The notes beneath the pieces were generated by a model that saw only the letters and a list, made by a program, of their open reading frames with translations, was not told the origin of the DNA and searched no databases. Shown one piece after another: positions 6,640 through 44,117 of a stretch of 46,056 nucleotides of DNA (positions are counted from its first letter, which is position 1; each line of letters begins with the position of its first letter). The DNA lies in the IMG/VR virus record IMGVR_UViG_3300048838_000493, positions 1-46,056 of that record. One strand, given 5' to 3'. The position numbers and the translations under genes are program-made. The stretch comes from a virus.

Positions 6640-7731
6640 CTACGATACCGGGAAAGTCCCTGTTGACCTTGCTGTATGGTCTACGTTACCCGGAACAAAA
6701 CAGAGTCTTGTCTGTGACCTGATGTATTCAGTCACGGGGTCAGAGCTGTTGAATGTATCAAAAATTATTTCAGCACCCGCAAGTCTAACCGCTTTGCCTG
6801 AATCGCTGAGAGCATCTATTCCGCCGAATACTCGATAACGCTTTTCACCGATTGAGAAAATAACCGCCTCGTCTGATGGGAAGAAACTTTCAGCAGTTGC
6901 GCCTTTGTACGCGGTGAATTGGTCTTGTGGTGAATACCCGCAAATCCATATTGGGAATAATTTACCCGGTACTCTGTATTGACCTACAAGATAAAGTCCT
7001 TGTGTATTCTGAAGCTCAGGAGGCATCATGTTCATCTGAAGAATAACGTTAGCCGCGTTTGCTTTCATGCGCTCCATTACGTCGGTATCTTCTTCAAGAG
7101 CGCTAAGCCAATCTTCGCCCATAATTACACATACGTTCTGAGGGTTGCCCCCCTTAGCCCTGTAAGCGTCGATAAGCGCTCCAAGTGCTTTGTCTATTGT
7201 TGCTCCGGCGGCGGTGAAATCATAAGTTATGTCAAGGCTTGCGTCCCTGCTGAAATCTATTTCAAGTCCGATGTCTTTACCCTGCTGTCCGAGCGGTGTA
7301 AATTTACCTGTTCTGAGTGTATCAATTGCATATTTCCAGCGAGTTGTAACATGTGCTACGCTGTGCTGTGTTACAATGTCAGATATAAGCCTTGCGTTGT
7401 TTTCTGCAAAACCAGTCTGGGAGCCACCCGCAACGATTGAGTCTTTAAGGCTTTCACTTATCGGTGTTTTTTCTGATGCGTGAGGTATGTCATAAAAAAT
7501 ACCTTTTCCGGGCTGATATTCCCTTACAACTGATTGTGTGTCTGGATGCCTGAATGCTATACCGTGAGGTGCAACAATCAATCTGTCAATGTTAAATTCT
7601 GCGGCCATTGAGCGGTTGTCGGTTCCGAAAAGAAATTGGTCGATTCCCTTTTTGCCCGCCATGAGCTGATTGTTTATTTCTGAATAAAATTCTTTTAGAG
7701 TTGAAAGAATTTTGTTGCTTGTATTACTCAT
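6640..7731 (-). CDS. major capsid protein, lambda gpE family
   Basis: A 363-residue protein following the decoration-protein gene. It shows features of gpE (HK97 fold) capsid proteins. Near the N-terminus is a loop with RLIVAPHGIAFRHPDTQSVVREYQPGKGIFYDIPHASEKTP split by short strands. The central part has long helices followed by YRVFGGIDALSDSGKAV, and the C-terminus is variable. gpE-type proteins pair with a gpD-like trimer, which is present just upstream. Length is close to lambda gpE (341). It starts at the ATG at 7731 with a GGAGG-type site before it. Confidence 0.9.
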   Translation of the reverse strand: MSNTSNKILSTLKEFYSEINNQLMAGKKGIDQFLFGTDNRSMAAEFNIDRLIVAPHGIAFRHPDTQSVVREYQPGKGIFYDIPHASEKTPISESLKDSIVAGGSQTGFAENNARLISDIVTQHSVAHVTTRWKYAIDTLRTGKFTPLGQQGKDIGLEIDFSRDASLDITYDFTAAGATIDKALGALIDAYRAKGGNPQNVCVIMGEDWLSALEEDTDVMERMKANAANVILQMNMMPPELQNTQGLYLVGQYRVPGKLFPIWICGYSPQDQFTAYKGATAESFFPSDEAVIFSIGEKRYRVFGGIDALSDSGKAVRLAGAEIIFDTFNSSDPVTEYIRSQTRLCFVPGNVDHTARSTGTFPVS

Positions 7732-7744
7732 TATTTATTCCTCC

Positions 7745-8095
7745 TTATTTCCTTTTAATGTAAATACCGGCCTGTGCACAGATGGCCCTTATATCTTCTG
7801 TCACCGTGAATGCCGCGTTTGCGTCTGTCACAATTCCGCCCTCCATGACTTCCCCGCCGATAATTACAGAATCGTAACCGGCCGCACTTAGAACTCTTGA
7901 TGCACCTATACCATTGCCAAGATATATGGCAATTGTGTCAGTCTGCGCCGGTGTTGCATCATACTGATAAGCGTCTGTTGCGGCATCGTATGTTAAAATC
8001 ATGCCCCTGTAATATGTATCAGCTTTAAGATACACTTGATCTGTTTTAATATCACCCGCGATTAAATTTTCGGTGTTAAAAGTTACCTCTGCCAT
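7745..8095 (-). CDS. capsid decoration protein, lambda gpD-like
   Basis: A 116-residue protein directly before the capsid gene and after the protease/scaffold gene, exactly as gpD lies in lambda. It contains the typical run of small residues and strands: NLIAGDIKTDQVYLKADT, YRGMILTYDAATDAY, and a final AICAQAGIYIKRK. gpD-like trimers cement expanded capsids. The ATG at 8095 overlaps the last base of the protease gene. Synteny and composition agree well. Confidence 0.85.
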   Translation of the reverse strand: MAEVTFNTENLIAGDIKTDQVYLKADTYYRGMILTYDAATDAYQYDATPAQTDTIAIYLGNGIGASRVLSAAGYDSVIIGGEVMEGGIVTDANAAFTVTEDIRAICAQAGIYIKRK

Positions 8096-8502
8096 TATAT
8101 TCCCCCTATTGCGCTAATAGCGTTTTTTACGTTAGACTTCATTTTTTCAGAATCAAAATCATCAACCTGCGCCACTACCGCCGGAGCTTGTGTTGCCGGT
8201 GTTTGTGCTGAATCAATTCTGATATTTGCAAATACTGATTCCTTTTTTTCTGCTCTGATTTCTTTTTGCCTCATGAGTTCCTGTTTTGCGAACTCGCCCT
8301 CATCAATATTGTTTTCGATTGCTTCAATAGTTGAATCGGGAAGTGTTACTCCTGACAGTTCGAGAATGTTTGATATTCTTTTTCTGTCGCTTGTGAAATT
8401 TGCCTGAACTGAATCTACTCCCTTTTGCTCTGCGGATAGGAGGGATGCTTTATATTCCGCTTCGGCTTCAGGATTCGATTTCAAAAAGTCCTGTAGGTTC
8501 AT
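8095..8502 (-). CDS. internal scaffold protein (in-frame start inside the protease gene)
   Basis: An in-frame ATG at 8502 begins MNLQDFLKSNPEAEAEY. The minus strand before it reads GGAGGAACAA-ATG, a near-ideal ribosome site with correct spacing, which an ordinary internal methionine would not need. The resulting 135-residue product is helical and acidic to basic, with a proline/alanine linker near its C-terminal part (TPATQAPAVVAQ). Lambda and relatives make their scaffold this way. The claim rests on the ribosome site and on the family precedent. Confidence 0.65.
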   Translation of the reverse strand: MNLQDFLKSNPEAEAEYKASLLSAEQKGVDSVQANFTSDRKRISNILELSGVTLPDSTIEAIENNIDEGEFAKQELMRQKEIRAEKKESVFANIRIDSAQTPATQAPAVVAQVDDFDSEKMKSNVKNAISAIGGI

Positions 8503-9234
8503 TTGTTCCTCCGTTATATTATTTTCTTCTACCGGTTTTTCAACTGGTGTTAAATCCTGTAATAGTGCTGCTGCTTTATTTTTATTTCTTGATATTCTCT
8601 CGACATCTCTTGACATTCTGTTTTGACATTCTAATATTTTTAATTGCGCTTTTTTCTTTTTCTCCGGCTCGCCACATTTTGCAAGCTCTGAATCTGTGAA
8701 CATTATTTCCTGTTTTTTTTCTTCATCCGGTATGTCTATTTCATCCGCCGAATCTATTACGTTGTCAATTATACCAGCATTAGTTAGAGACTCCCATCCA
8801 ATAAGCCATATCTCATTTTTCATTTCTGATAAAATTTCTTCTTTTGGCTTTTTCATTTTTTTAGAATAAGCTTCAGATAAAACATTATCCATTGCTCTTG
8901 CTATGTCGGCTTCTCGCTGTATTTCGTCGGCATCACCGATTCCTATTGCCTGTGCTCTGTGAGCCATAAAGATAGAATTTTTAAATGCTGAAATTTTATC
9001 ACCGGACATTATAATATAACTCATTGCACTTGCTGCCATGCCGTTTATTACAAATTCTATTTCACCGTTGTATGTTGAAAATATATTGAATATTTCAAAA
9101 GCATCTATAACAAAACCGCCGGGGCTATTTACAATTATCTGCCATTTTTCTTTTGACGCTCCGTTCATCTGTGCGCGTATATCGTCCGCTGTTATATCAA
9201 GTCCGACTATGCCGGATAAATACATTGTTTTCAT
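8095..9234 (-). CDS. head maturation protease (ClpP/S49-like) fused to scaffold
   Basis: A 379-residue protein. Residues 1-165 form a ClpP-type serine protease: NSPGGFVIDAF near 36-46 (oxyanion region), the nucleophile in GMAASAM (Ser69) and the catalytic His92 in FMAHRAQ. This enzyme trims the procapsid and itself during head maturation. Residues about 190-379 are charged, helical and alanine-rich, as expected of scaffold. An internal ATG at 8502 with a strong ribosome site could make the scaffold separately, as lambda Nu3 is made inside C. The gene lies between portal and decoration genes. The start overlaps the portal stop by 4 bases. Confidence 0.9.
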   Translation of the reverse strand: MKTMYLSGIVGLDITADDIRAQMNGASKEKWQIIVNSPGGFVIDAFEIFNIFSTYNGEIEFVINGMAASAMSYIIMSGDKISAFKNSIFMAHRAQAIGIGDADEIQREADIARAMDNVLSEAYSKKMKKPKEEILSEMKNEIWLIGWESLTNAGIIDNVIDSADEIDIPDEEKKQEIMFTDSELAKCGEPEKKKKAQLKILECQNRMSRDVERISRNKNKAAALLQDLTPVEKPVEENNITEEQMNLQDFLKSNPEAEAEYKASLLSAEQKGVDSVQANFTSDRKRISNILELSGVTLPDSTIEAIENNIDEGEFAKQELMRQKEIRAEKKESVFANIRIDSAQTPATQAPAVVAQVDDFDSEKMKSNVKNAISAIGGI

Positions 9235-10754
9235 TCTTTAACCTCCTGTTCGTCTTCTATGTCAACTTCACTTGTTGTCTTTTTTTCCATGTCCTGCTGT
9301 AATGCTTGCGCCTGTTTTTCGGGTGACATTTTTTGAAATTCCTCCATTTGCTGTTGCCACTCTTCTATCTGGTCATCCCATTCTCTACTACCATATTGAG
9401 CCGCTGCGTCTGCCGGTGTGATAAACGCGTTGTCTTTTGCTGTAACGAGTGCGCCGACTTCCTGAAGCGGATTTATGTGTCCGGGGACTGGGCCAAGCCA
9501 TACACCGGATAATGTTGCCTCCTGAATTATCGGGTCTGTGAAAAATTTAGGATTAGGCATCTCAATTAAGTTTTCCATGAAAAGCCATTTGGCTATCTCA
9601 CGGATTACCGGCTTGTTTACATTGCGGAAAAAGTTTGACCTTTTCTGTGTATATGATTTTACAAAATCATTTAAGGCACCCTTGTGGGCTGTAAAGCTTG
9701 TACTATATTTGCTCATCACAACTTCAGGCGGTGTGTCTGTTGCCATACCGACACATTCAATATATGCTGTTTGCAGTTTGTCAAAATTGTTTGACGGTGT
9801 TTTTAAATCTGCAAATTGAAAATCACCTTTACTGTCAAGTTGCATTATAGAGCCGGTCGGCATGTTCGCAGTGTTTGTCAGTGTTGATAAACCGCTTGCC
9901 GGATTTGAGCTGATGCCGTCTATGCCGCGCGCCTCTTCTGCAATTTTTAAAGCCTGCTCACGCGTATCAGTTTGGTCTGACTTTGAGAATCCGAGCATGG
10001 TTGATTCCATGACAGCGCGAGCAAGCATTGCATCCCACCATCTATCATTATTTTTCGCGGCGGCTATGATTCTGTAATCTATCGGCATGCCGCGTAATTG
10101 ACGCGCCATTTTCTTATCAAAAAACTGGATTGCGTTTTGGTCACCGTTGTCGTCTCTGAAATTTATGTGCGATTGCTCTGTATCGTTTAATACAAAACCT
10201 TTGCGTCTTAAAAATTTATCGTGAATTATTCCGAGTGTAATCAGCTCTTTATTTTTCGGTGTTGCTTGAAAGTTTATTTGGTCTCCGCCGATTTCAATAA
10301 GGTCAAAAGGCATGTTGTCATCTGGTGTTTCACGGTCAAAAAGCAAAACGCTATCACCCATTATTAAGCCAGTGCCGAAAAGGGTAGCCTGTTTTTCATA
10401 ATAATTCAGCATCAAAAAAGCGTAATGAACGAGCTTCTGAAATCTCATTCCCCAGTCTTTGGCTTTTTCTTTCGTGATGCCAAGTGTCTGCCAGTCTGGC
10501 TGACTACGATATACAAGTCCGTTACCGATTGCATAAGCTGTCTGTTTATTTATTGCCGCTGTAACCGGTGGGTGTGTGTGGTATAATGTTGTTGCTCTCT
10601 GACATAAAATATCATAGTTTAATTTTAATATTTCATTTGGGTCTGTTCCAAAATAATTCCATGTGTCCAAATCGCCGGGGATTTTATCGCCGGTTAATTG
10701 TGCATGGTTTGTTAAATTCTGTAACTTGCCGTTATTTATTATCATTATCGACAT
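9231..10754 (-). CDS. portal protein, lambda gpB family
   Basis: A 507-residue protein that forms the dodecameric DNA channel at the head vertex. It begins MSIMIINNGKLQNLTNH and shows the family's early segment 'LYHTHPPVTAAINKQTAYAIGNGLVY' in pieces at residues 57-83. A central block carries the 'KSDQTDTREQALKIAEEARG' helices. The region 'TDTPPEVVMSKYSTSFTAHK' around residue 340 is typical of lambda-type portals. The C-terminus is glutamine- and glutamate-rich (EWQQQMEEFQKMSPEKQAQALQ). Neighbours are a gpW-like gene upstream and the protease downstream. Confidence 0.93.
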   Translation of the reverse strand: MSIMIINNGKLQNLTNHAQLTGDKIPGDLDTWNYFGTDPNEILKLNYDILCQRATTLYHTHPPVTAAINKQTAYAIGNGLVYRSQPDWQTLGITKEKAKDWGMRFQKLVHYAFLMLNYYEKQATLFGTGLIMGDSVLLFDRETPDDNMPFDLIEIGGDQINFQATPKNKELITLGIIHDKFLRRKGFVLNDTEQSHINFRDDNGDQNAIQFFDKKMARQLRGMPIDYRIIAAAKNNDRWWDAMLARAVMESTMLGFSKSDQTDTREQALKIAEEARGIDGISSNPASGLSTLTNTANMPTGSIMQLDSKGDFQFADLKTPSNNFDKLQTAYIECVGMATDTPPEVVMSKYSTSFTAHKGALNDFVKSYTQKRSNFFRNVNKPVIREIAKWLFMENLIEMPNPKFFTDPIIQEATLSGVWLGPVPGHINPLQEVGALVTAKDNAFITPADAAAQYGSREWDDQIEEWQQQMEEFQKMSPEKQAQALQQDMEKKTTSEVDIEDEQEVKE

Positions 10755-14347: not shown

Positions 14348-14644
14348 TCAACCTATAAAAATCAAAATGTAATTTAAGCACCCGCCGATAATCCAGAAAC
14401 ATAAATCTCTTATTGAGTCCATCCATGTCCGGGGTATTTCTAAGGCTTTAATATATTTCCGATACTGATAACACTCCATGAGTAATCCGGATATAAAACC
14501 GTATAACACCGGCAAGTATATTATCGGAAAAAAATGATAAATAAAAAATGAAATCCAGAAACCATAAAACATATGTGTATGCTGATATGCGAGTTCTTTT
14601 ACGTTCCAGAATGCTTTCTTATCAGTTGTTATTCCGAATGGCAT
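14348..14644 (-). CDS. membrane protein, holin candidate
   Basis: A 98-residue protein with about three hydrophobic segments: FYGFWISFFIYHFFPIIY (near 26-43), LPVLYGFISGLLM (44-56) and CFWIIGGCLNYILIFIG (82-98). A polar loop (ECYQYRKYIKALEIPRTWMDSIRD) separates the last two. Size and topology would suit a class I holin. The conserved-looking E...D..RD pattern also recalls small VanZ-like membrane proteins. The ATG has a strong GAGGAGG ribosome site at 14652-14658 and lies inside the end of the NrdD-like gene. Confidence 0.6.
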   Translation of the reverse strand: MPFGITTDKKAFWNVKELAYQHTHMFYGFWISFFIYHFFPIIYLPVLYGFISGLLMECYQYRKYIKALEIPRTWMDSIRDLCFWIIGGCLNYILIFIG

Positions 14645-14775
14645 ATTGTGGCCTCCTCAAATTTTACTGTTTGTCTCTCACTGTATTCTTCCCGCTTCCC
14701 CTTGTTCCATTGCTGAACCGGGCGGAAATATCCGACAACGCGCGAATATACTTCTGTTGGCACTTTTTTATTCAT
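14629..14775 (-). CDS. stand-alone glycyl-radical C-terminal domain of anaerobic ribonucleotide reductase (NrdD-like)
   Basis: A 48-residue protein whose residues 7-39 match the C-terminal end of class III ribonucleotide reductase NrdD: TEVYSRVVGYFRPVQQWN, then KGKREEYSERQTVKF. The radical-bearing glycine would be Gly15 in the RVVGY motif. The catalytic barrel, the ATP cone and the usual CxxC zinc pairs of NrdD are absent, and no NrdG activase gene is seen. The ATG overlaps the stop of the preceding gene as ATGA, and the next gene starts inside its end, so it is embedded in an operon rather than being a decayed remnant. By analogy with YfiD/GrcA, which replaces the damaged end of pyruvate formate-lyase, it may restore oxygen-cleaved host NrdD. 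That role is inferred. Confidence 0.8.
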   Translation of the reverse strand: MNKKVPTEVYSRVVGYFRPVQQWNKGKREEYSERQTVKFEEATICHSE

Positions 14776-14873
14776 CTCAAATTATCTCCGTCATGCAACA
14801 TTGAAATCATAAAAAATATAAAAAGCAGGCACATGCAAGTTATAGCTGCCGTAATTACATTATCTACTATCAT
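14772..14873 (-). CDS. 33-residue membrane peptide
   Basis: A short protein, MIVDNVITAAITCMCLLFIFF followed by a polar end, with one clear transmembrane helix (about residues 6-25) and an acidic C-terminus. An AAGGA site lies 8 bases before the ATG. It overlaps the preceding gene by 14 bases and the NrdD-like gene by 4 (ATGA). It could be a holin partner or a membrane anchor. No family was recognised. Confidence 0.5.
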   Translation of the reverse strand: MIVDNVITAAITCMCLLFIFFMISMLHDGDNLR

Positions 14874-14997
14874 TTTTATTTTCCTTTTCATTTTCTTTTA
14901 TTGGTGTAAAACATTTTTTAATGTCGTTTCCGTTTTTCATTTCCATGCAGTAAATATATTTTGAACAGAAGAAACAGCAATTTTTAGAAACTGACAT
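14860..14997 (-). CDS. 45-residue cysteine-rich protein
   Basis: A small protein beginning MSVSKNCCFFCSKYIYCMEM. Cysteines at 7, 8, 11, 17 and 29 form a C-x2-C...C...C set that may bind zinc or iron-sulfur. The C-terminus is lysine/glutamate-rich. The ATG is preceded by GGGG at proper spacing and lies inside the end of the upstream membrane gene. A phage gene of this size with a CxxC cluster is plausible but not assigned to a family. Confidence 0.5.
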   Translation of the reverse strand: MSVSKNCCFFCSKYIYCMEMKNGNDIKKCFTPIKENEKENKNDSR

Positions 14998-15137: not shown

Positions 15138-15446
15138 TTAGTTCTCCTTAATGATTTTATTCCTGATTAAAACGTCTGATAATCCGAGTGCTAATCTATC
15201 AATAAATTTTTCATCGTGTTCTTCGTCATATAGTCCGAGGTCAAAACATACAGCGTGTATAACTTCGTGCAATAATGTTTGCAATTCAATTGATTCCTGT
15301 GATTTTCTTATCCTGATAACTTTATTGTTGTAATCACAGTCACCGCATAACAGTATATCCGGAATATCAGTGTTGCTGAAATAATCCTTTTCCATTATTA
15401 CTTTCCAGTTTACGGAAAATATGTTTAATGTTTTTGGTATCTTCAT
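15138..15446 (-). CDS. zinc metallopeptidase (HExxH), ImmA/SprT-like
   Basis: A 102-residue protein with the zinc-binding motif HEVIH at residues 60-64. A downstream acidic helix (HDEKFIDRLALGLSDVLIRN) probably supplies the third ligand. This compact layout (beta start, 'TLLHE.IHA', then 'E..v..la..l..vl') matches phage-borne gluzincin-like peptidases related to ImmA/IrrE and SprT. Such enzymes may cleave repressors or process virion proteins; the target is unknown here. It lies directly after the papain-like gene and before small membrane proteins. Confidence 0.8.
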   Translation of the reverse strand: MKIPKTLNIFSVNWKVIMEKDYFSNTDIPDILLCGDCDYNNKVIRIRKSQESIELQTLLHEVIHAVCFDLGLYDEEHDEKFIDRLALGLSDVLIRNKIIKEN

Positions 15447-15447
15447 T

Positions 15448-15990
15448 TTAATTCATATCAAGTAATTTTTCAAACTGATTTGCTTTAATTTCTTTAAATG
15501 CTAATACACCGACTCCACGATTCATTGTATCAAATAAAAATAGCGCGCCCATTTTCATCATGCAGATAATAAAGTGGTTCTTTCGCTTTCCGGTTAGTGT
15601 TCTGCCAGTGTAAATTCTGAGCTGATAAACTCCATCCGGTTTTAATTTTGTAGGATTTATTATCTGGTTGTAATCTTCAATAAAGTTCAGTTTGAAATTT
15701 TTAACTCCGAGCTTTTCACATAACGCCGGTTTGTCTGTGATATATCCATCTGCTTTTATTGTGCCTGATTCATACCCGATTTTAAAATACTCGTCATAAT
15801 TTATGCAGATTTTATCAGTAATAAATAAACCCATCCAGAAAGACACAGAGTTGCAATGTGATAACGCGTATTTTTTAGCCTGTTTTTCGGTGCAATCCAA
15901 TACAAGCATTATATCTTTCCAGAGTAACGAGTCATCGTTCACCTGATTATATTTTTTTGCCATGCCACGCAAGATTTCAAATTTATACAT
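15448..15990 (-). CDS. papain-like cysteine peptidase-like protein (DUF261-like)
   Basis: A protein of 180 residues from the ATG at 15990, chosen because GGAG lies about 10 bases before it. An ATG 12 bases further upstream directly abuts that GGAG and is unlikely. The pattern of a cysteine in an early helix (LSHCNSVSFWMGLF), a middle strand pair, KNHFIICMM and LFLFDTMNRG recalls the Cys...His...Asp/Asn order of papain/NlpC-type folds. It also resembles Borrelia DUF261 proteins. It may act on peptide cross-links (lysis or entry) or be a non-catalytic relative. The match is by eye and low-scoring, so the fold is a proposal. It overlaps the ferredoxin gene by 8 bases. Confidence 0.55.
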   Translation of the reverse strand: MYKFEILRGMAKKYNQVNDDSLLWKDIMLVLDCTEKQAKKYALSHCNSVSFWMGLFITDKICINYDEYFKIGYESGTIKADGYITDKPALCEKLGVKNFKLNFIEDYNQIINPTKLKPDGVYQLRIYTGRTLTGKRKNHFIICMMKMGALFLFDTMNRGVGVLAFKEIKANQFEKLLDMN

Positions 15991-16165
15991 ATTCGACCGC
16001 ATCTCCTAAACAAGTTTTTAAAACTTCACACTCTTCACACCGTAGACATCTGTCTGAAATATAAGTACAAGAATATTTTCCATCCGCCTCAAACGCTTCG
16101 CCTTTGCAATTTTCTAAACAAGTACCACATCCGATACAATTATCAGGATTAAATTTTATGTTCAT
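15983..16165 (-). CDS. 2[4Fe-4S]-type ferredoxin
   Basis: A 60-residue protein with two cysteine sets. Cys10, 13, 16 and 20 (CIGCGTCLENC) form a classic CxxCxxCxxxC site. Cys40, 43, 46 and 52 (CLRCEECEVLKTC) form a second site with a longer last spacing, as in some bacterial ferredoxins. An extra Cys33 is present. The proline that usually follows the fourth cysteine of the first set is a lysine. It should be a soluble low-potential electron carrier. The ATG overlaps the preceding stop (ATGA), showing operon coupling. Phage ferredoxins exist but are rare in late structural operons. Its partner enzyme is unknown. Confidence 0.85.
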   Translation of the reverse strand: MNIKFNPDNCIGCGTCLENCKGEAFEADGKYSCTYISDRCLRCEECEVLKTCLGDAVEYV

Positions 16166-19841: not shown

Positions 19842-21725
19842 TTATTTCAATAGTCTCATCTCCACGTCATTCCAAATCTGTTCCGTCCATGAACTTAAAT
19901 TCAAATGTTCCGCTGCTGAACGTGCAAGAATCCATGTATCAAGCGGTTCATTTCGTTCATATATTTTCCTGTAATTCCATTTCCCCGGCTCCGTTTCGGC
20001 ATAGACTTCAGATAAAAAACCGCGAAAAAACTCCTCGCCGAGCTGTTTTGTAAAATGCATTTCGCCCGGTGCACCTGCGGGTAAATCAACTTTTACAAAT
20101 ATTTCATCTTTCAGCTCGTTTATTGCGTGGTCGTAACGTACTTTTAAAGGTGATTGTCTTTTTACTCGCTCCTCTTTTAATATTGTGTCTTTTAATTTTG
20201 CGTTACCTCTACATGCGATTGTCCGTGGTGTACGTGCCACCATTTCATAGACCGTATGCTCATAGGTTATGTCTGTTCCATCTATTTTGTCGTCGTCCGG
20301 GTTATATCCTGAATCTATCGCCGCACGGCTTATTATTACATCCACCGTTTCACGTTTTTTTAGCTTATATTTTTTCGTTGCAATAAAATTTCGCCAGTCC
20401 TGCCAGCATCTATCGTTTTTATCTTTTGTTCCGTTCTGTGCGTGGAACTTTCCTTCGTCTATTACCCATGACTGCATATCGCGCCCCCATGCAACAACGG
20501 TATATTGCAGGTACATTTTTTGAACGTCTGTTCCCATTGTTACAATTAGAGCACCCTCCGGTAATATGCCTAAAGGATAATCTTCTGATTTGTTGTATAG
20601 ATCGGTATAACTGCGTTTTTCTGTGCGGGCTTCCCAAGCTTCACCGAGTACATCAATAATAAAGTTTTTGAGCTTTAAAATATTTGCACCCCATCCGGTC
20701 TCTGCAAACTCCTGCATGCACTGAGTCCATGAATAAAATACAACGGGAGACATTAAATTGCTTATATGATAACTTCTATATCGCGGGTTTACCGGTCGCG
20801 CCGTTGGTATCCATTTACCGCCATTTAACATCTGACCTTTCTGATATTCCTTAATCATTTTTTTGCAGAACTTACAAATATAGCCAACTGAATCAGGGAT
20901 AATCAATTCTAATTTATCAACCATTTCAGAGCGTGCAAATAAACCGTGTTGTCTGCCTTCTGTCATGAGTTCCAAAACCTGAAGCTCGCCACATAAAGGG
21001 CACTGACAAAAATATTTTCGTTGGTCACCTTCAAGCCAGTTTTTATGGATTCTGCCTTGTGTGTTTGTTGGCGTACTGATTTTAATTATTTTAAATCCTC
21101 TTATTGTTTTTGTACGCCCGCGAAATATTGCTTCAACATCGCCCTGTCCTTTTAGTTCACCGTGTGGCGCTTCCTCCAACTCATCCATAATAATGAGACT
21201 GTACGAAAAGCTCTTCGCGTCGGCTATTGAATTATAGCTTGTCATAAGTAATCGCCGATTGCCGTGCATCTCTTTATAAAACGCGCCGTCTGCAACTTTC
21301 TTTTTTGCACGTTGTGAAATCGGCTTCATGCAGTCAGCTAATCCGGAGTAGTCTATCATTGTGTCAATAGCGGCGGAGGAGCGCATTTTTGCCATAGATA
21401 AAGATGATATGATATACAGGATATTATGCAATTTATATTTTATACTATGCCCTATCACATTTTCCGCGGCTGTTGTTATGAGTGCCTGAGTGCCTTTTTT
21501 GATTGTGATTACATCAACATCACTGTCTGGGTGTGCGGCATCCATAATCTCAACGGAATACGGAGCAAGAGAATGGTCTACCATGCCGGGGTATTCTGTT
21601 GTTCCCGCGGGGAGGTATCTATTTTGTGAGGCCCATTCTGATATGAGCGGAATATGCGCGTCTGTATGCCATGTATTTATATAACGGGTTAATTTTTCAC
21701 GGGATTGGATTTCTATGTCTATCAA
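19842..21725 (-). CDS. terminase large subunit, lambda gpA family
   Basis: A 627-residue packaging motor and nuclease. The N-terminal ATPase part contains VDVITIKKGTQALITTAAEN (about 69-88, Walker A region). LIIMDELEEAPHGE near 175 is the Walker B and catalytic carboxylate region, and KISTPTNTQGRIHKNWLEG near 215 is the coupling motif. Two CxxC pairs (CQCPLCGEL and CKFCKKM) form a zinc site seen in gpA-type terminases. The C-terminal nuclease part holds GTDVQKMYLQYTVVAWG and AAIDSGYNPDDDK acidic residues. It overlaps the Mom-like gene by 4 bases. Length is close to lambda gpA (641). Confidence 0.93.
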   Translation of the reverse strand: MIDIEIQSREKLTRYINTWHTDAHIPLISEWASQNRYLPAGTTEYPGMVDHSLAPYSVEIMDAAHPDSDVDVITIKKGTQALITTAAENVIGHSIKYKLHNILYIISSLSMAKMRSSAAIDTMIDYSGLADCMKPISQRAKKKVADGAFYKEMHGNRRLLMTSYNSIADAKSFSYSLIIMDELEEAPHGELKGQGDVEAIFRGRTKTIRGFKIIKISTPTNTQGRIHKNWLEGDQRKYFCQCPLCGELQVLELMTEGRQHGLFARSEMVDKLELIIPDSVGYICKFCKKMIKEYQKGQMLNGGKWIPTARPVNPRYRSYHISNLMSPVVFYSWTQCMQEFAETGWGANILKLKNFIIDVLGEAWEARTEKRSYTDLYNKSEDYPLGILPEGALIVTMGTDVQKMYLQYTVVAWGRDMQSWVIDEGKFHAQNGTKDKNDRCWQDWRNFIATKKYKLKKRETVDVIISRAAIDSGYNPDDDKIDGTDITYEHTVYEMVARTPRTIACRGNAKLKDTILKEERVKRQSPLKVRYDHAINELKDEIFVKVDLPAGAPGEMHFTKQLGEEFFRGFLSEVYAETEPGKWNYRKIYERNEPLDTWILARSAAEHLNLSSWTEQIWNDVEMRLLK

Positions 21726-22411: not shown

Positions 22412-23112
22412 TTCTTCATCCCTTTAAATTTAATTCCCTCCTCCTCTAACGCTTTTAATAAATCCTTCTGCGTATCCTTTACGATGCTTTCTAATTCACG
22501 CAACATTAACTGCTCTGCCTCTCTGTCCTGATTACCGAGGTAAAAGGCTTTTAGCTTTGGCCCTATCTCGTGCGGGCGCCTGTACCATCGCTGAATTATG
22601 TTTTCTATAAAGCTGAAAAAGTGAATCATTAAATCCACGTTTGCTAAATCTTTTTTTATCTCTAATGTTTTTAGTTTCTCCTGCATTTCTTTTTCGCGCT
22701 TTATGCCTGCCGCGAAAATTATATCCTCCATTGCAGCAATGGCGGCGCGTCTTTGCAGTTCATCTAATTCCGGATTCCTCACCGCCTCCGGTATATCAGG
22801 AACACTACTCCTTTTTTGCCGTCCTGTCACCTCTATATCTTCTTCCTCGTCGCCACCATCAAAAACAGATTTTTTTAAATCAGCCTTAAACTTCTTAGCC
22901 TGTGAAACTTTCTCATTTATTAAATTCTGTTTTATACCCTTTGTTTCTGATTGTTTTATGCGCTGTATCCAATCTTCAGAACTTGTATCTACCATAACTT
23001 TATTGTCGGTGTCTACAAAATAACCCGGACGCGGGTCTCTGTTTTCCCATTGTTGCAATGCCTGTTTTGTCACGCCTAAACGTCTGGCGGCCTCTGATTT
23101 TGTTATTAACAT
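22408..23112 (-). CDS. terminase small subunit
   Basis: A 234-residue protein with an N-terminal winged helix-turn-helix (MLITKSEAARRLGVTKQALQ, recognition helix near 15-27) like the Nu1/Xis-type DNA-binding domain. A charged linker (KSVFDGGDEEEDIEVTGRQK) and a helical C-terminal half (DELQRRAAIAAMEDIIFAAG) follow. A small subunit recognises the packaging site and recruits TerL. Its place directly upstream of the terminase module supports this. It overlaps the HNH gene stop by 7 bases and the Mom-like gene by 4. The residues are not diagnostic on their own. Confidence 0.7.
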   Translation of the reverse strand: MLITKSEAARRLGVTKQALQQWENRDPRPGYFVDTDNKVMVDTSSEDWIQRIKQSETKGIKQNLINEKVSQAKKFKADLKKSVFDGGDEEEDIEVTGRQKRSSVPDIPEAVRNPELDELQRRAAIAAMEDIIFAAGIKREKEMQEKLKTLEIKKDLANVDLMIHFFSFIENIIQRWYRRPHEIGPKLKAFYLGNQDREAEQLMLRELESIVKDTQKDLLKALEEEGIKFKGMKK

Positions 23113-24035
23113 AAAACTTTACCCGATATATAATTGATTATACTTTTAGGATTTATATTTCTTACTTCGCATATTCTTATAATTACATCCTGCCAATTTT
23201 CAGGAAGTGAATCATGTTTTGAACAATTTTCAGAATAATGAAGTGGCTGCAAATTTAAATAATGACACGCGATTAACTGATGCTCTGGGTCTATCAAGTT
23301 AAATTTTGATATTGGTATAATATGGTCTATATGGTCTGTGGATTTATCATATCCTAAATTTTCAAGATAACAAGAAAGTTCTAACCCGGTACAGCCGACT
23401 AAATCCATAGTTGCTTTTGTTTTTTTAGCCGATTGAATTTTTAAAGCTTTTCGTAATCGTGCCCGCATATTGTCGGAAAGTTTATATTGAATATCGGTTT
23501 TTCTTTTTTCTTTATATTTAATGCTTTCCTTTTTTCTGCGTTCTTGATTTTTAAAAATATCAATCTGTTCTTTCCATGCTGTTTGAAATTCTATTACATC
23601 CGAAAATTGGTTTTTAAAAAATATTTTTTTAATAGTCCGTTTTTGTTCTGCTCTTTTTTTTATTTCATCCTTGTTTTTCTCTTTCCATCGTTTACTATTT
23701 TCCAACAATCTTTTCTTGTCTCTTTTATATCTTTCTAAATGACATTTTGGATTTTCATCGCGCCATTTTTTATTTTTTTCTATCAACATATTTCTATAAT
23801 CTTCATCTTCTGCTCTTTTCTTGTTTCTTCTTAAATTATATTTTTCTTTATTTTTTTCAGTCCAGGATTTTGAGATGGCTCTTCGTCTTTCTATATTCTT
23901 TTCTCTGTATTCTTTTTCTCTTTTCTTATCACACTCAAGGCAGACATTTCTGCACCCTGTTTTATTTCTATCATCTTTTCTAAAACAATCAAAAGATTTT
24001 TCAACTCCACATTTTATACAAACTTTTTTATTCAT
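23106..24035 (-). CDS. HNH endonuclease with N-terminal zinc finger
   Basis: A 309-residue protein from the ATG at 24035. This start is chosen over an upstream ATG because AAAGGGGA lies at the right distance. The N-terminus has two CxxC pairs (CIKCGVEKSF and CLECDKKREK). The middle is very basic with repeated 'R..NKKW..ENPKCH' motifs. The C-terminal nuclease holds the HNH signature: DHIDHIIPISKF, a central NLQPLHYSEN and a final NCSKHDSLPEN. It is the first gene of the late block, directly before TerS, a placement common in HNH genes that assist terminase cutting. A homing-type origin is also possible. Confidence 0.88.
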   Translation of the reverse strand: MNKKVCIKCGVEKSFDCFRKDDRNKTGCRNVCLECDKKREKEYREKNIERRRAISKSWTEKNKEKYNLRRNKKRAEDEDYRNMLIEKNKKWRDENPKCHLERYKRDKKRLLENSKRWKEKNKDEIKKRAEQKRTIKKIFFKNQFSDVIEFQTAWKEQIDIFKNQERRKKESIKYKEKRKTDIQYKLSDNMRARLRKALKIQSAKKTKATMDLVGCTGLELSCYLENLGYDKSTDHIDHIIPISKFNLIDPEHQLIACHYLNLQPLHYSENCSKHDSLPENWQDVIIRICEVRNINPKSIINYISGKVLC

Positions 24036-24060
24036 ATTTTCCCCTTTAAAATAATACAAG

Positions 24061-43196: not shown

Positions 43197-44117
43197 TTAT
43201 GCTGCGTAAGAGCCTACAAAAACATAAGCCATTATTGTTGCTGATTCCATTTCTGTTTTTGAGCCGGTACGGGGAGTGCCGTTTGTGCCGTCATTCATGG
43301 CTTTAAGTGGTCTTGTGCCTTGAGTGGAAGTGGCGAAAGCTAAATTTGTACTATTCGTGGCTGGAGCTGTTGTTGGTACTACATCCCTTGCGCCTGAATA
43401 GCCGTAATAATTTCGTGCGCCCGCAGAATCTTCCGTAAACCCCGCTTGCCATGCTTGAAACTTATCCCGTCTTCTTAACCCCGTAATCTTATTCTGACCC
43501 GTCATATACAATCCAAGTCCAGCCCATGAAAAATGTTTGCATGAAGTTGTTGAGCCTAAAATTCTATTAAGATAAATTTCTATACTTGTTCCGGATGGTG
43601 AACCTGATACAGTTATTATTCTCGATGCGACTGTAAAGCCCGTAATATTATATTCAGTTCCCCCCGAAACAAGTATTCTCCATCCTGATGTTGGCGAACC
43701 TGCAAAAAGCCAATCTTCATATAATTCTGCAATCATCGCAACATTAGCAGCGTTATTGTCAAGCGTAAAATCAGAGCCTGACCACGTGCCAGAGAAAGAA
43801 GAAACCGCAGTATTAAATTCATCGTAGGTGACTTTTCTTGACCGCATTTCATCTATAAAAGCAGAATCATAATTTGTTGTCGTCAATGTCTGGTCTGGCA
43901 GTGACATGCAAAACCACGGAAAACTTGCGGATATTGGTTTATAACAATTTAAAAATTTCATCTCCTGCCCGATATACAGTGATTGTAAAGATGAAATTAA
44001 ATTTGTAATTGTTATTTTAAAGTCACCTGAGCTGTCGCGCCCCGGCACTCGCTCCGTACCGTCGATAACAGTTTTCGTTCTCGAAATATCATCAATAGTT
44101 TTTGGTTGTGTACTCAT
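43197..44117 (-). CDS. tail fibre/collar-like protein
   Basis: A 306-residue protein beginning MSTQPKTIDDISRTKTVIDG. The centre shows beta-rich repeats (TGFTVASRIITVSGSPSGTS). The C-terminal part (RRDKFQAWQAGF, then STQGTRPLKAMNDGTNGTPR and AYVFVGSYAA) resembles the ends of phage tail collar or fibre proteins, which often close with R.E..s.t..YV.vG. It precedes the glycine-rich adhesin gene and follows the 606-residue tail protein. A host-contact role is likely. Confidence 0.6.
   Translation of the reverse strand: MSTQPKTIDDISRTKTVIDGTERVPGRDSSGDFKITITNLISSLQSLYIGQEMKFLNCYKPISASFPWFCMSLPDQTLTTTNYDSAFIDEMRSRKVTYDEFNTAVSSFSGTWSGSDFTLDNNAANVAMIAELYEDWLFAGSPTSGWRILVSGGTEYNITGFTVASRIITVSGSPSGTSIEIYLNRILGSTTSCKHFSWAGLGLYMTGQNKITGLRRRDKFQAWQAGFTEDSAGARNYYGYSGARDVVPTTAPATNSTNLAFATSTQGTRPLKAMNDGTNGTPRTGSKTEMESATIMAYVFVGSYAA

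Follow-up and report, generated by a model that had tools for sequence, protein, structure and literature searches.

A phage gene for a stand-alone NrdD glycyl-radical domain and its possible relation to split class III ribonucleotide reductases

A 48-residue radical domain in a phage morphogenesis operon

The window, by which we mean the whole 46,056-base contig that was analyzed (an IMG/VR virus record), encodes on its minus strand a 48-aa protein (MNKKVPTEVYSRVVGYFRPVQQWNKGKREEYSERQTVKFEEATICHSE) that starts at the ATG at 14775 and runs to 14629, stop included. The ORF sits between the terminase and portal genes, all on the same strand, in a morphogenesis operon with the following features.

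9231 to 10754, minus strand: portal protein, on the downstream side of the operon (phrog_21, E = 2.1e-43)
14348 to 14644, minus strand: 98-aa membrane-type ORF, downstream of the radical-domain gene (85% identical in the related phage stretch L187)
14629 to 14775, minus strand: stand-alone NrdD glycyl-radical domain protein, 48 aa (PF13597, TIGR02487, relatives in 208 viral stretches)
14731 to 14733, minus strand: codon 15 (GGA), the predicted radical glycine in RVVGY (from the sequence; glycine also in the stand-alone viral relatives listed)
14772 to 14891, minus strand: 39-aa membrane-type ORF, upstream, with an ATGA overlap with the radical-domain start (95% identical in L187)
15983 to 16165, minus strand: 60-aa dicluster-type 4Fe-4S ferredoxin-like ORF, same operon (Fer4_6, E = 2.8e-7; 92% identical in L187)
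19842 to 21725, minus strand: terminase large subunit (phrog_15, E = 1.1e-119)

The 98-aa ORF starts at 14644, inside the 3' part of the radical-domain ORF, and is preceded by a GAGGAGG ribosome-binding site. An earlier note on this DNA had called an NrdD glycyl-radical domain at 14629 to 14775, with an ATGA overlap on one side and a nested start on the other; the coordinates, the domain call, and both junctions are right, and the ORF lies on the minus strand.

The 48-aa ORF matched the Pfam NRDD family PF13597 with 36.8 bits (E = 2.5e-9; curated cut-off, 26.2 bits) over profile positions 532 to 560 of 562, so the search for a significant match to NrdD C termini that the earlier note had called for returned one above the cut-off. 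The NCBIfam model TIGR02487 matched with an E value of 2.1e-7 over positions 551 to 579 of 581. The radical-glycine motif R-V-x-G-Y/F is present as RVVGY, which includes Gly15 and is followed by FRPVQQWNKGK. Pfam returned PF13597 alone among matches listed up to an E value of 1, with no match to a PFL-type glycyl-radical family. A PDB sequence search with the peptide gave only weak matches, to the class III NrdD chains 4coi and 4u3e (E about 0.05), and an AlphaFold model of the lone peptide, based on a 22-row alignment, had low confidence (pLDDT of 68) with a single helix at residues 19 to 30.

Across the whole contig, the NrdD model matched nothing besides the 48-aa ORF and the NrdG-type domain PF13353 matched nothing, in line with the initial reading that neither a catalytic barrel nor NrdG is visible. 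The ten-stranded barrel with its active-site cysteine is absent, as TIGR02487 is matched contig-wide only at positions 552 to 579, and the window contig holds no adjacent nrdG or nrdD lacking the radical domain, as is usual for phage copies. Given this absence of NrdD and NrdG matches, the window phage would use the NrdD and NrdG of its host. The ferredoxin-like ORF at 15983 to 16165 is a possible electron source for NrdG; it was not seen in a relative of the window phage, L007. The same operon also encodes a SprT-like/metallopeptidase-like ORF (15138 to 15446, minus strand; phrog_1233, E = 8.7e-21) with an HEVIH motif. An HNH-endonuclease-like ORF (23106 to 24059, minus strand) appears to be an insertion upstream of the small terminase ORF, where L187 has only ∼230 bases.

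A family of stand-alone radical domains in phages

Relatives of the window ORF are encoded in 208 IMG/VR stretches, which answers the earlier call for a search for other short phage copies. About 70 of the best 80 of these 208 relatives are short ORFs standing on their own, with full-length NrdDs accounting for 9. We searched the whole records of 40 phages with a stand-alone copy (30 to 122 kb) and found the NrdD barrel missing from 38, an absence that is not absolute given that virus records may be fragments. The remaining two, L010 (a 95.7-kb record) and L018 (a 122-kb record), encode an NrdD without the radical domain plus a separate radical domain; the L010 NrdD spans PF13597 positions 1 to 531. 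A PF13353 match was present in only 3 of the 40 records. The small piece occurs on its own in phages of several unrelated types.

At the same morphogenesis site, a homologous ORF is kept in L187, whose portal protein is 93% identical to that of the window phage, and in the more distant L007 (terminase, 59%). The radical-domain gene of L187 is divergent, with 64% DNA identity versus 96% for the preceding ORF and 84% for the following ORF, a pattern suggestive of cassette exchange or of unusually rapid divergence. Among 68 distinct stand-alone phage cores, purifying selection was evident from a mean pN/pS of 0.22 (0.31 for less saturated pairs). K20 and E23, which the core regex left free, were invariant in 68 of 68 cores; the regex fixes R5, G8, P12, and R27, and invariance there is partly by construction. 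Both the viral and the genome matches were collected with query-derived patterns. The same-site copies in L007 and L187, together with purifying selection, argue that the window ORF is more than a chance reading frame.

Split class III ribonucleotide reductase in bacteria and archaea

We scanned bacterial and archaeal genomes and recovered at least 576 relatives. Many belong to a split class III ribonucleotide reductase (RNR), found in Spirochaetota, Thermodesulfobacteria, Elusimicrobia, several Deltaproteobacteria, a Micrarchaeon, and others. In the split layout, nrdD ends at position ∼532 of the 562-position profile, an ORF of 45 to 120 aa directly behind it supplies positions 532/533 to 562, and nrdG often comes next. 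The NrdD terminus upstream of the small ORF reads TPTFSICPVHGYIPGxHxxCPYxHT. A spirochaete NrdD (L091) covers PF13597 positions 1 to 532 plus the ATP cone, and the complementary small proteins cover 532/533 to 562 by Pfam. Operons of the order nrdD, radical-domain gene, nrdG occur in several phyla, and ribosome-binding sites precede most of the small ORFs inspected. The motif (M/N)CCRLR(L/I), as in fused NrdDs, is retained by 37 of 40 split NrdDs; a Cys in it aligns with a Cys near position 420 of the Prevotella NrdD structure 8p23, which we take, with an inferred numbering offset, to be the Cys416 named in PMC11226230.

A frameshift or assembly error as the origin of the bacterial split was ruled out, as the small ORFs have their own starts, most of those inspected have ribosome-binding sites, and the arrangement recurs across phyla. 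The gap between the nrdD stop and the small ORF, which varies from an overlap to about 130 bases, also counts against such an error. Based on these gene structures, class III RNR is encoded as two polypeptides in many anaerobes, namely an NrdD that has the ATP cone and barrel yet lacks the radical domain, and a protein of 45 to 120 aa with the radical loop.

Within the Spirochaetota, 115 of 247 genomes had a match: 59 with short separate domains only, 40 with only 140- to 235-aa proteins, 14 with fused domains only, and 2 with both. Only separate radical domains were thus found in 99 of the 115 matched genomes, a count obtained with a profile built mainly from stand-alone copies, which may miss divergent fused NrdDs. 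At three Spirochaetota loci that we inspected (L225, 9851 to 10429; L226, 9632 to 10186; L122, 237 to 818), the radical domain and a glutaredoxin-like domain are joined in one ORF, and in L225 and L226 this fusion adjoins an nrdD lacking the radical domain. Many more of the 140- to 235-aa class are probably fusions of this kind, which join the radical carrier and a likely reductant in one small protein. A search of plasmid records with a spirochaete operon copy as the query gave no match.

Class I or II RNR matches were also present in 24 of 31 split-RNR genomes. Class III RNR therefore need not limit deoxynucleoside triphosphates (dNTPs) in these organisms, and any gain to a phage may depend on conditions.

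Extra copies and the host of the window phage

Where a genome has at least two copies, one is typically part of the nrdD operon, and several of the other copies lie in prophages. Prophage-borne extras were found in L174, L190, L194, L213, L217, and L219, near terminase, portal, head, or Mu-like transposase genes; some other extras have no phage sign nearby. The extras were more similar to the operon copy of their own genome (82.5%) than to the operon copies of other genomes (73.9%; permutation p < 5e-5). This p value held for all 28 extras and for the Spirochaetota alone, and it is optimistic, as the test takes in related metagenome-assembled genomes and chromosomal paralogues. Extras with clear phage genes followed the same own-genome trend in a small sample of few copies. 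The operon nrdD was readable in 19 of 20 multi-copy genomes tested and stops short of the radical domain.

The core of the window protein is identical at 25 of 27 positions to the spirochaete operon copy of L091. A terminase-based host search matched 14 of 247 Spirochaetota genomes at 27 to 34% identity, too distant to inform. In one spirochaete prophage (L201/L229), a protein that matches a tail-fibre family is homologous to a tail-fibre-like ORF of the window (43197 to 44117, minus strand), with 58% identity over the matched region. This was the single match among 296 Spirochaetota genomes, and 198 genomes of the phylum of G021 had none. As the sole link, the tail-fibre-like ORF gives a hint that the window phage may infect a spirochaete.

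A candidate radical subunit for host NrdD

We consider it likely, with a probability of roughly 60%, that the window ORF is a phage copy of the detachable radical subunit of a split class III RNR, supplied to a host NrdD that lacks one. Host NrdG would install the glycyl radical on the phage peptide, and the charged peptide would then dock within the barrel of host NrdD, next to the active-site cysteine, to start NTP reduction. In class III RNR, the radical domain flips from the barrel to meet NrdG and then returns (PMC12662201), from which it follows that a detached domain may need only charging and docking. From what is established on radical scission, oxygen would destroy the radical subunit, and a small piece that costs little to replace would limit the loss. 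A late-expressed phage copy could provide a fresh or extra radical subunit outside the control of the host nrd operon and so sustain dNTP supply. The broader proposition is that the two-piece form of class III RNR, in which the radical subunit is exchangeable, is widespread and that phages of anaerobes carry host-matched copies of this subunit as a minimal, one-gene takeover or upkeep of dNTP synthesis; we favor it slightly.

The earlier note had instead proposed that the peptide may patch host NrdD cut by oxygen. In such a role it would replace the C-terminal piece of an ordinary full-length enzyme broken at the radical glycine. YfiD and the phage T4 protein Y06I do this for pyruvate formate-lyase (PMC8683613). 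Two Patescibacteria loci (L117, 8035 to 10120; L134, 4294 to 6910) also fit such a role, with a full NrdD, a second ORF with a Zn-ribbon and a radical domain, and nrdG, and the Zn-ribbon type occurs in phages L025, L071, and L074 as well. However, only these two Patescibacteria genomes showed a second radical domain next to a full NrdD, and the window peptide has no Zn-ribbon extension. The lack of a zinc ribbon and the core identity to the spirochaete operon copy place the window peptide with the split type. Split systems make up most of its best cellular matches, and none of the readable operon nrdD genes of the multi-copy genomes reaches the radical domain. In most bacteria with the closest homologues, nrdD likewise ends before a separate radical-domain gene, which makes an NrdD without the domain from the start the likely partner. 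We thus regard repair of oxygen-cut NrdD as an unlikely main role for the window peptide and as a weaker, special case of radical-subunit supply.

It is less probable still that the phage copy is a decoy or switch that takes the place of the host radical subunit on NrdD or NrdG and inhibits or retunes dNTP synthesis, for example by escaping dATP control. Small phage proteins often aim at host enzymes, and the L187 copy is divergent, as fast-changing interaction partners can be. Against this, the copies retain the radical glycine along with conserved K, E, and W positions, which a pure decoy would not need, and the presence of an own NrdD barrel in some large phages points to activity. A decayed, now functionless remnant of a phage NrdD gene could also leave the C-terminal 48 residues alone in a contig without nrdD. 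The earlier note had named decay of the homologues as a result that would speak against its idea; the stand-alone copies are intact, with pN/pS values of about 0.2 to 0.3. Purifying selection, the same position in two relatives, translational coupling to the neighboring genes, and dozens of intact stand-alone copies all contradict decay and make it very improbable. Supply of a radical subunit to host NrdD remains our preferred reading.

Comparison with known systems and implications

The view that a phage here encodes an autonomous NrdD glycyl-radical domain, similar in kind to YfiD/GrcA, is supported. Like YfiD/GrcA of Escherichia coli and Y06I of phage T4, the window protein is a separate, small glycyl-radical-loop protein, a kind likewise known from a phage, and by analogy it would be charged by the activase of the parent enzyme and dock in its barrel. 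Unlike them, it is NrdD related and has 48 aa, whereas they are pyruvate formate-lyase cofactors of about 127 aa. The partner of YfiD/GrcA is oxygen damaged, whereas most relatives of the window ORF pair with an enzyme that has no domain from the outset. With class III NrdD (PF13597, TIGR02487) the window protein shares the last ∼30 profile positions, including the radical glycine and RPVxxWN, but it is a free-standing gene product without an ATP cone, barrel, or zinc site.

An RNR catalytic chain in two polypeptides is also known from the split class II NrdJa/NrdJb and the split nrdA of phage Aeh1 (PMC9669993, PMC3653736), although these are other RNR classes and their separate piece carries no glycyl radical. 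Phage T4 and Desulfovibrio phage ProddE likewise supply part of class III RNR, as NrdD/NrdG, but they encode a complete enzyme, radical domain included.

In the open papers that we searched, with most subscription papers and preprints outside this set, we found no mention of a split class III RNR whose radical subunit is a separate protein and no description of stand-alone NrdD radical domains, in agreement with the earlier note, which had known of no NrdD version in phages. In a passing annotation, a 144-aa ORF of the ANMV-1 virus was named anaerobic ribonucleoside triphosphate reductase. Validated spare-part proteins number only two (YfiD and T4 Y06I), both for pyruvate formate-lyase, and spare parts for other glycyl radical enzymes have been considered possible (Andorfer et al. 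2021, PMC8683613). If true, our reading would give glycyl radical enzymes besides pyruvate formate-lyase their first spare-part family. The candidate set of RNR spare parts is large and includes cultured species, among them Thermodesulfobacterium hveragerdense, whose nrdD and small gene are both in L096, and the natural two-piece enzymes allow a direct test. RNR surveys that exclude short sequences miss the radical subunit; one survey (PMC9531940) dropped sequences of <400 residues. The truncated-looking NrdDs found in many anaerobes probably function as they are, and the genes of nucleotide metabolism may include a phage gene of only 48 codons.

Some NrdD genes in our set are also unusual in other respects. 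The phage L018 NrdD (6675 to 9917), which lacks the radical domain, has an intein-like domain (PF14890) inside it and is followed by the separate radical-domain ORF. The NrdD frames of two Thermodesulfobacteria loci (L094, 6920 to 9949; L147, 5653 to 9936) are unusually long, at 1009 and 1427 aa, and possibly contain inteins.
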